Shown here one piece after another: positions 5,921 to 19,087 of a DNA stretch of 64,000 bases. Where the stretch lies: assembly GCA_005116955.1 (NCBI GenBank), contig SWDI01000002.1, forward strand, positions 63,315 to 127,314, given 5' to 3'. The first letter of the stretch is position 1; every line of letters starts with the position of its first letter. The notes beneath the pieces are model-generated. The model ran no database searches, was not told the origin of the DNA, and saw only the letters and a program-made list of their open reading frames with translations. Both the position numbers and the translations under genes were made by a program. The stretch is from Nitrospira sp. (GTDB lineage Bacteria; Nitrospirota; Nitrospiria; Nitrospirales; Nitrospiraceae).

Positions 5921-6006
5921 CCTCACCACGGCAGCGCAGCAGGCCCTCATGGCCCTGGCACGAGCCAATATCCTGGCCCTCAGCCCGACTTAGCCGGAGA
6001 TTAGGG
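5921..6006 (+). repeat. 86-bp transposon-derived repeat, copy A
   Basis: This stretch is identical to the reverse complement of 16072-16157. It ends in ACTTAGCCGGAGATTAGGG, the terminal inverted repeat of the MITE-like element at 16 kb. In one frame it encodes LTTAAQQALMALARANILAL followed by SPT and a stop, like the C-terminal tail of a transposase. The opposite end of the element is not seen upstream, so this copy is a fragment. Confidence 0.85.
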
Positions 6007-6007
6007 G

Positions 6008-6496
6008 CCCGGCTATGGACTTGCCATTGCTGCCGCCACCATGGTGGGCCAAAGCATTGGAGCCGGCAAGTATACGAGGGCGAAACTCGAAAACTGGGAA
6101 GCCAATCGGCTGGCCATTATGATCATGACCGGTATGGGAATCCTCTTTTTCTTCTTTCCATACACGTTGCTTCGTGCGTTCACAACCGATGACGCGGTGA
6201 TCGAGCTCGGAACGACGTTTTTAAAGATTGTTGCCTTACTGCAAGTGCCGCTAGCCCTTACCATGGTGTTAGCTGGGTCGCTGCGGGGCGCCGGCGACAC
6301 CCGCTTCATCATGGGTGCCACGATGATTGGTATGTGGGGTGTCCGCGTGCCCTTGGCACTGGTCGCGGCCCTCTGGCTCCGCCAGTCCGTCTCATTCATC
6401 TGGGCAGCAATGATCGCGGACTGGACTGTGCGGATGGGGCTCTTACTTTGGCGCTATCAGTCCGAGCGCTGGCGGCAGATTCAGGTGATTCGATGA
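6008..6496 (+). pseudogene. MATE-family efflux protein, C-terminal remnant
   Basis: The frame reads GYGLAIAAATMVGQSIGAGK, continues through several membrane segments and contains LRGAGDTR, a hallmark of the second half of MATE multidrug/Na+ antiporters. About 160 residues remain of the usual 440-460. The coding similarity starts immediately after the terminal repeat of the mobile element (5921-6006), and the reading frame hits a TAG inside that repeat. The 5' two thirds of the gene have therefore been lost at the insertion boundary. An ATG at 6041 could start a short product, but function is unlikely. Confidence 0.85.
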
Positions 6497-6602
6497 GGAG
6501 CACGTCGCGAGCAAGTATTTCTGTTTCGGGAGAGTGCACGACTGCCATCTCTACCGGTGCGATTCCTGTTCTCGGCCTCGACTGTGACCGGCGAGCTATG
6601 GA

Positions 6603-15882: not shown

Positions 15883-15991
15883 CCTTCTTGCTTCGCTTCC
15901 CTCGTCCAGCCTTGACCAGGGCCTTCACCCGCTTGACATTCTTCTGATGTTTCTTTCGTGTCTTCCGATCCTTCTCACGACCTCGTGCCAT
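15872..15991 (-). CDS. Unlisted 39-residue highly basic protein
   Basis: A short ORF absent from the supplied track starts at ATG 15991 behind AGGAGG with three bases spacing. It encodes MARGREKDRKTRKKHQKN followed by a Lys/Arg-rich remainder ending KRSKKAKS. About half of its residues are Lys or Arg, as in small ribosome- or nucleic-acid-binding peptides. Its stop overlaps the 3' end of the receiver gene by 11 bp. The strong ribosome site and clean boundaries make it plausible. No family is recognised. Confidence 0.65.
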   Translation of the reverse strand: MARGREKDRKTRKKHQKNVKRVKALVKAGRGKRSKKAKS

Positions 15992-16071
15992 GATCCTCCT
16001 ACTGGAAAGTGGGTGATGCGTTCTTTATGGCCGATTGTATAGCACATGCCTCGCTAGGTCACAAGCTGAGA

Positions 16072-16157
16072 CCCTAATCTCCGGCTAAGTCGGGCTGAGG
16101 GCCAGGATATTGGCTCGTGCCAGGGCCATGAGGGCCTGCTGCGCTGCCGTGGTGAGG
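16072..16157 (-). repeat. 86-bp transposon-derived repeat, copy B
   Basis: This is the left part of the MITE-like element and is identical, in inverted orientation, to 5921-6006. The two copies bracket about 10 kb. Confidence 0.88.
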
Positions 16158-16266
16158 CGTAACAGCGTACGATCAAGCAATGTGGATGCCATGCCGGTTC
16201 CCGCTCCGCATACGATCGGACACCATCGTGGACGTTGCCAGTCCCGTACTTAGCCGGAGAATAGGG
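16072..16266. mobile_element. 195-bp MITE-like element with TIRs and 6-bp target duplication
   Basis: The ends CCCTAATCTCCGGCTAAGT (16072) and the reverse complement of ACTTAGCCGGAGAATAGGG (to 16266) match at 18 of 19 positions. CTGAGA occurs directly on both sides (16066-16071 and 16267-16272), as expected for a target-site duplication. On the minus strand the interior encodes a short C-terminal peptide ending LARANILALSPT. It therefore looks like an internally deleted insertion sequence mobilised in trans. The family is not identified. It ends 77 bp before valS. Confidence 0.82.
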
Positions 16267-16301
16267 CTGAGAGCACATCCATTTTCTGCATCGTATAGAC
16301 A

Positions 16302-16310
16302 TGCTAAGAT
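16302..16310 (+). promoter_or_regulatory. Candidate extended -10 for valS
   Basis: TGCTAAGAT fits an extended -10 (TGn plus TAAGAT) 33 bases before the valS ATG. No convincing -35 is seen. It lies 35 bp beyond the MITE end. Confidence 0.3.
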
Positions 16311-16342
16311 GCGCACCTTGTTTTTTAGAGGACCTTACAGCA

Positions 16343-19087
16343 ATGACCACACGTCAACTCGATAAAACGTATGACCCAAAAGCCGTTGAAGACCGTTGGT
16401 CCCGCGAGTGGATCGCCCGGGGGTATTTCCGTGCTGACGCGAAGAACCATCCAGGCCAACCCTACAGCGTTGTCATTCCTCCTCCAAATGTGACCGGCTC
16501 CCTCCATGTCGGCCATGCGCTCAACCATTCACTCCAAGACATTTTGATTCGGTGGCGGCGTATGCAGGGGCGTAACACGCTCTGGCTCCCCGGAACCGAC
16601 CATGCCGGCATCGCCACGCAAAACGTGGTGGAAAAACAGCTGATGGCTGAAGGGCTGTCACGAGAGTCGCTGGGACGGGAGCGCTTCGTCGAACAGGTGT
16701 GGCAATGGAAAGCAACGTCGGGCAACACGATCGTCAATCAACAGAAGCAGCTCGGTGAATCCTGCGACTGGGACCGTTTGCGATTCACGATGGATGAAGG
16801 CTTGTCTAAAGCCGTCATCGAGGTCTTCGTGCGTCTATATGAAGACGGGTTGATCTACCGTGGCGAGCGACTCATCAATTGGTGTCCACGCTGCCTGACC
16901 GCCCTTTCTGACATCGAAGTGGAACATGAAGAGGTGAAAGGTAAACTGTATCACCTCCGCTATCCGTTGGCGGACGATCCGAACACCGGTTTGATCGTGG
17001 CCACAACACGACCTGAAACGATGCTGGGCGACACGGCTGTTGCCGTGCATCCGGATGATCCTCGCTATCGCCATCTGATCGGCAAGAAGGTTCGTCTGCC
17101 GCTGACGACGCGTGAGATTCCGATCGTAGGAGATCGGATCCTGGTCGATCTGGAATTCGGCACCGGTGCCGTCAAGATCACGCCGGCTCACGACTTCAAC
17201 GACTACGAAGCGGGAGAGCGGCACGGACTCTCTCGTCTTGCCGTGCTGGATCATGCCGCATTGCTTGATGCTGCCGGGATGCAACAGGCAGGAGTCGAAT
17301 CATCGGTCGTCGAGCTGCTCCGTGGTCTTCCCGTCTCCAAAGCCCGTCCCAAGGTCGACACGCTGCTGCGCGAGCAAGGAATCCTGGAGAAAACCGAAGA
17401 CCATAAGATGGCCATCGGGAAATGCTATCGCTGCAAGACGGTCGTTGAGCCGTATCTGTCTCCCCAGTGGTTCGTCAAGATTCAACCTCTTGCCGATCCC
17501 GCTATCAAGGCAGTTGAAGAGGGACGGATCCGGATTATCCCCGAAGGCTGGGTGAACAATTATCTCGGCTGGATGCGGGACATCAAGGATTGGTGCATCT
17601 CACGGCAAATTTGGTGGGGGCATCAAATCCCTGCTTGGTACTGTCTGGCCTGTAATAGTCGTCAGATCGTCACGACAGATGGTCGGATCACCATTCTACA
17701 AGGCGCCGTACCAATTATCTCCAGATTGACTCCCGCTGGATGTCCGACCTGTCATGGCCAACAATTGCTCCGCGATCCGGACGTACTCGATACCTGGTTT
17801 TCCTCCGCCCTCTGGCCGTTCACAACACTCGGGTGGCCGGATCAGACGCCTGAACTCAAGACCTATTACCCGACCGCCACATTGGTCACCGGCCTCGACA
17901 TTCTGTTCTTCTGGGTGGCTCGCATGATCATGATGGGGCTCAAGTTCATGGGAGATGTGCCCTTCAAAGACGTCTATATCCATGCCTTGGTCCGCGACGC
18001 AGAAGGCCAGAAGATGAGCAAGTCCAAGGGCAATGTGATTGACCCGCTGCACGTCATGAATCAATTCGGCACCGACGCCCTTCGGTTCACTCTGGCCTCG
18101 ATGGCCTCGCCGGGACGCGATATCAAGCTGGCAGAAGAACGGATCGAAGGCTACCGCAATTTCGCCAATAAGATTTGGAATGCCGCCCGATTTGGGTTGA
18201 TGTATCTCGATGGACCACGTACCGCCCTGCCGCCGGCACAACGGACATTGCCTGACCGGTGGATCCTGAGCCGTCTCGCCCACACGATCCACATCGTCAC
18301 GACGGAGTTGGAGTCCTACCGCTTCGATCGTGCCGCGACAGCCCTCTATCAGTTCATCTGGCATGAGTACTGCGACTGGTATCTGGAATTGATTAAACCG
18401 GTCCTACAAACGCCAGAACACCCGGATGGAGCCAGCACAAGGCACACGCTTGTGGAGACACTGGAAACGACCATGCGGCTGCTGCATCCCTTCATGCCGT
18501 TTATCACAGAAGAAATTTGGCAGACCATTCCCCATCAGGGAGATAGCATCGTTGTGCAGACCTATCCGGACTCGGACCAGGCATGGGCCGCGCCTGATGC
18601 GGAACAACTGTTCGCATTATTGGAACAGACGGTGGGACTTGTCCGAACCAGCCGAGTCCTGTTGAATTACTCGCCGGGGCAGCAGATTCCGTTTCATGTC
18701 GGGCACGACGACCTGGACAGACAGCACCAGCTCCATCAGGTCCAACGACACCTGGCCCACCTCAGTCGCGGCACTGCCGATGTGAGCCCGCCGCAAGATT
18801 GGCCAGCGGCGAGATTGTTGCGGCTGGTCACGGAAGGTCTTTCTGTGGGTATTGCTGTCGCCGATGACGTCGACCTGAAGAAAGCGATTGAGCGTCTGGC
18901 TAAGCAAATCACGGAGACCGACAAGGAATTGCAACGGGTTGATGGGAAGCTGAAGAACGCCGAGTTTGTGTCGAAAGCTCCACCGGACGTGATTACCGAG
19001 CACCAGGAGCGGGTGCGGACCCTGTCCCGCGATCGTGCCTTACTGGACAACAGCGAACAGCAGCTTCGCACGATGTTGGGATCCTGA
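16343..19087 (+). CDS. valS: Valyl-tRNA synthetase
   Basis: ValS charges tRNA-Val with valine. The class I signature PNVTGSLHVGHAL and KMSKSKGNVIDPL are intact. The CP1 editing domain (ATTRPETMLGDTAVAV) and the WCISRQIWWGHQIPAWYC segment are present. A C-terminal coiled-coil arm (LAKQITETDKELQRVDGKL) completes the bacterial form. The start at ATG 16343 gives 914 residues, preferred to 16301. The gene begins a tight run with nadC, birA and coaX. Confidence 0.97.
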   Translation: MTTRQLDKTYDPKAVEDRWSREWIARGYFRADAKNHPGQPYSVVIPPPNVTGSLHVGHALNHSLQDILIRWRRMQGRNTLWLPGTDHAGIATQNVVEKQLMAEGLSRESLGRERFVEQVWQWKATSGNTIVNQQKQLGESCDWDRLRFTMDEGLSKAVIEVFVRLYEDGLIYRGERLINWCPRCLTALSDIEVEHEEVKGKLYHLRYPLADDPNTGLIVATTRPETMLGDTAVAVHPDDPRYRHLIGKKVRLPLTTREIPIVGDRILVDLEFGTGAVKITPAHDFNDYEAGERHGLSRLAVLDHAALLDAAGMQQAGVESSVVELLRGLPVSKARPKVDTLLREQGILEKTEDHKMAIGKCYRCKTVVEPYLSPQWFVKIQPLADPAIKAVEEGRIRIIPEGWVNNYLGWMRDIKDWCISRQIWWGHQIPAWYCLACNSRQIVTTDGRITILQGAVPIISRLTPAGCPTCHGQQLLRDPDVLDTWFSSALWPFTTLGWPDQTPELKTYYPTATLVTGLDILFFWVARMIMMGLKFMGDVPFKDVYIHALVRDAEGQKMSKSKGNVIDPLHVMNQFGTDALRFTLASMASPGRDIKLAEERIEGYRNFANKIWNAARFGLMYLDGPRTALPPAQRTLPDRWILSRLAHTIHIVTTELESYRFDRAATALYQFIWHEYCDWYLELIKPVLQTPEHPDGASTRHTLVETLETTMRLLHPFMPFITEEIWQTIPHQGDSIVVQTYPDSDQAWAAPDAEQLFALLEQTVGLVRTSRVLLNYSPGQQIPFHVGHDDLDRQHQLHQVQRHLAHLSRGTADVSPPQDWPAARLLRLVTEGLSVGIAVADDVDLKKAIERLAKQITETDKELQRVDGKLKNAEFVSKAPPDVITEHQERVRTLSRDRALLDNSEQQLRTMLGS

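Follow-up and report, generated by a model that had tools for sequence, protein, structure and literature searches.

The apparent 195-bp miniature element upstream of valS in this Nitrospira sp. is, with very little doubt, an end-to-end join of the stubs of an ordinary, complete IS1380-family insertion sequence (IS) shortened by assembly. The mini-element itself is almost certainly not a real feature, and the IS1380-family insertion upstream of valS is real. In the window, the whole 64,000-nucleotide stretch analysed here, CCCTAATCTCCGGCTAAGT occurs at 16072-16090 (+) and again, with one mismatch, at 16248-16266 (−). These inverted ends of 19 bp agree at 18 positions, as the initial annotation had stated, and form the sole inverted repeat reported in 15900-16400. 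With up to three mismatches allowed, CCCTAATCTCCGGCTAAGT matches the window three times against 0.01 expected, a number reached by none of 100 shuffles; the third match (5988-6006, −) was absent from the initial annotation. The element (16072-16266) consists of a left arm of 97 bp (16072-16168, −), which comprises one IS end and the last transposase codons, and a right arm of 98 bp (16169-16266, −), which comprises the other IS end and precedes the start of the transposase gene. Read on its minus strand, the left arm encodes LTTAAQQALMALARANILALSPT followed by a stop codon, the C-terminus of an IS1380-type transposase, so the transposase-like tail recognised previously is indeed present. The two arms meet at 16168/16169 in what we interpret as an artificial junction, since elsewhere in the assembly 100 N or unrelated sequence begins at the same base. 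We infer that the assembly has lost approximately 1.3 kb of IS interior here, a segment that would be intact in the source genome.

CTGAGA flanks the element on both sides (16066-16071 and 16267-16272, both +). Fusing the flanks over a single CTGAGA reproduces the uninterrupted site of relatives: the insertion site is empty in all 11 aligned relatives (77-96% identity), with the hexamer in single copy in 10 of them and replaced by CAGAGA in the most distant one. The insertion upstream of valS is thus real, and the interpretation of CTGAGA as a 6-bp target duplication holds. The start codon of valS (16343-19087, +) was set by conservation with relatives. GACATGCTAAGATG, which is nearly invariant in the 11 relatives, is located on the side of the insertion that faces valS, and TGCTAAGAT (16302-16310, +), which is invariant in all of them and resembles an extended −10 element, lies intact between the insertion and the start codon as a putative promoter motif. 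The simplest reading of this sequence conservation is that the valS promoter would be intact, with the IS inserted just upstream of it. A promoter scan of the region returned two sites against 0.6 expected, among them a single weak outward site at 16235-16262 (9 of 12 positions). This site is unconvincing beside the conserved downstream motif, and an IS-borne promoter for valS was therefore rejected as a candidate; the proposal that the insertion could carry or alter the valS promoter found no support.

We searched the source assembly (8 contigs, 3.65 Mb) for other copies at the DNA level. This search revealed four joined copies, three of 195 bp and one of 196 bp, together with many one-arm matches, nearly all of which stopped at the same query position. 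A pattern search located 14 left ends and 12 right ends, and further copies with the same ends, which the initial annotation had proposed to look for, thus exist. We then read 19 sites. The arms are joined directly at four of them, separated by exactly 100 N at three, and represented by a single arm against 100 N followed by something else at three more; at one site the right arm constitutes the first bases of scaffold C2, and at the remaining eight the arm passes directly into unrelated sequence. Left arms measure 97-98 bp (one of 86 bp) and right arms 95-98 bp, nearly every arm in the assembly breaking off at the same base ±3. No constant short internal sequence is shared by all copies: the four joined copies display three different junctions (AGCGT/ACGATC twice, AGCGTC/CGATC and AGCGTC/ACGATC, where the slash marks the joint), and the other 15 sites differ from these. 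All seven in-place pairs of arms are bordered by a target duplication, of 5 bp in six cases and 6 bp at the valS site, indicating that their flanks are correctly paired and that only the interior is missing. A search of plasmids for copies of the element found none, and among GTDB genome contigs the sole close relative was LNDU01000039.1 (Nitrospira sp. Ga0074138), with a left end 94% identical.

Repeats unrelated to the element are cut in the same way. The N run at locus L068 of scaffold C5 is bordered, opposite the IS arm, by a second repeat, the last 97-98 bp of which are present at seven places; it is cut at the same base at all seven (one with a single extra base), six of them continuing into 100 N and one being a scaffold end. 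This repeat (GAGTTATAACC...GGATACGCC) has at least seven copies (L123-L129, on scaffolds C1, C2, C3, C4 and C5), and its full form is missing there. A third repeat, at the edge of locus L067, has 99 bp in common with C1:479508, a site likewise next to an N run, and the same 99 bp are found with 91% identity at C4:3272. A cut at 97-99 bp in three unrelated repeats, at gaps and scaffold ends alike, shows that the arm length was set by the assembly and not by any element. Multi-copy ISs are known to collapse into one contig and to leave stubs at the contig edges of draft assemblies, the length of the stub often being about half a read with Velvet or SPAdes (ISseeker, PMC5343135). The classification of the 195-bp form as a MITE is consequently not sustained, given a junction that falls at assembly breaks and varies by one base, and unrelated repeats that are cut alike.

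A full-length relative of the element was found in the genus. Matches to the element are present in 24 of 79 Nitrospira genomes, including the source genome. In genome G033 (locus L101), both ends belong to one 1535-bp element with 23-bp inverted repeats and one transposase, which scores 268 bits against the IS1380 equivalog model NF033539 (cut-off 180) and also matches Pfam DDE_Tnp_1_4. Genome G024 (L102) carries a 1121-bp version of the element. Sequence comparison identified the left-arm frame as the C-terminus of an L101-type transposase, whose gene runs from the right arm towards the left arm and hence, in the window, away from valS. Used as a query against the source genome, the L101 transposase hit 13 left arms, through their C-terminal stub, but no close full-length copy, a result to be anticipated had the contig of the collapsed repeat been omitted from the assembly. 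The search for a full-length parent proposed initially thus succeeded in a relative and failed in the source assembly. Scaffold C6 contains another IS1380-type transposase gene, a divergent one whose 471-codon frame is intact (C6:110677-111912, L110); it was rejected as the parent, its product sharing 34% identity with the L101 transposase. In genome G055, an IS21-like gene pair, judged by eye to be an integrase-type transposase and its ATPase helper, starts shortly inside a related IS1380-type left end at two loci (L097:561-2884 and L098:620-2943), an arrangement that looks like one IS inserted in another.

We therefore propose that a complete IS1380-family IS of about 1.5 kb, with its transposase directed leftward, inserted upstream of valS, where it duplicated its target, in a genome that holds at least 14 copies of the IS. 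From each flank, the assembler would have reached no further than about 97 bp into the repeat, a distance that would correspond to the length of its k-mers or overlaps. The joining of contigs would then have made neighbours of the two stubs, separated by 100 N at some sites and end to end at the valS site. The two arms, the constant point at which they are cut, the 100-N gaps found there at other sites, the like treatment of unrelated repeats, the full-length relative and the empty site all point to this artefact. Two observations speak against it: the flanks at the valS site are joined without N, which taken alone is also compatible with a real short element, and the assembly contains no full-length copy of this subfamily, so the parent interior is seen only in relatives.

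The main alternative is that the 195-bp form is a true MITE, derived from an IS1380 element by internal deletion and mobilised in trans by the transposase that full-length copies encode. MITEs are often deletion derivatives that keep both IS ends, and the four joined copies, which differ little in length, retain their ends intact and lie at different sites between 5- to 6-bp duplications, have the appearance of such a family. However, the deletion point would need to coincide, at both ends, with the cut length of an unrelated repeat, the junction varies between copies, and elsewhere the arm gives way, at the same base, to 100 N or a scaffold end. Moreover, no contiguous match to both arms was found in the 78 other Nitrospira genomes, among the best ten candidates scored per genome. 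We consider this explanation, by which a mini-element would move in trans in one Nitrospira species and have one copy upstream of valS, very improbable. The abstract of the single paper returned by a literature search on MITEs in Nitrospira deals with a different topic. Least probable of all is a real IS1380 IS whose interior, absent from the assembly and thus not readable, holds more than a plain transposase, such as passenger genes, since both arms align to the ends of the 1535-bp L101 element, which holds only a transposase, and the left arm continues the transposase frame.

The stubs of the proposed IS also expose doubtful joins. Matching 5-bp duplications link two pairs of orphan arms, and one of these pairs splits a MATE-family gene. 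The window contains the C-terminal part of this gene (5921-6500), in which lies the 86-bp left-arm stub (5921-6006, −), and the rest is found on the same scaffold at a distance of about 615 kb, beside a right arm (C2:684275-684642, L065); the two parts carry the matching duplications GCCCG/CGGGC. When the halves are joined, they form a single 443-residue open frame with a match to Pfam MatE, and the gene is uninterrupted over the whole query in genomes G006, G030, G010 and G076. In G030, the MATE gene lies on the valS contig, about 5 kb from valS, and a different contig carries the dnaJ-like gene, which in the window is next to the stub. The join on the dnaJ side, at about 5920, is thus doubtful and is probably a misjoin, or else the product of a rearrangement between IS copies. 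Two arms on scaffold C5 (160957-161055, L067, and 219263-219358, L068) belong to one IS copy with the duplication GACGA but lie on either side of 58 kb of sequence with a 100-N gap at each border, an arrangement that suggests contig misplacement during scaffolding. A 100-N gap close to the beginning of scaffold C2 (L020:1215-1314) interrupts an apparent coding region with no IS copy beside it.

A collapsed repeat can therefore mimic a perfect mini-transposon, inverted ends and target duplication included, and MITE catalogues built from draft genomes should compare the length of the arms with the cut length of other repeats in that assembly. The sites retain their value as a map of at least 14 real IS insertions and as flags of doubtful joins in the source assembly, one of them inside the window.

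Compared with known systems, the element at the valS site resembles the IS1380 family (NCBIfam NF033539, Pfam PF13701) in the similar length of its inverted ends (18 of 19 positions matching, 23 bp in L101), in the matching transposase C-terminus of its left arm, which is consistent with the DDE transposase of the full-length relative, and in its short target duplication. IS1247, a member of this family, is 1672 bp long and duplicates 5 bp of its target (PMC3281130), like six of the seven in-place pairs described here, whereas the valS site differs with 6 bp; unlike members of the family, the copies in the source assembly lack their interior. IS-derived MITEs are likewise short, bounded by two inverted repeats and a target duplication, and present in several copies, but the internal junction at the valS site is variable and coincides with assembly breaks. 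A further parallel is provided by the IS stubs at draft contig edges described with ISseeker (PMC5343135), where, as here, a multi-copy IS collapses, the assembly breaks at each copy and a stub of constant length remains; in our case, however, the stubs were later joined, some without any N, leaving a scar that mimics a small complete element.
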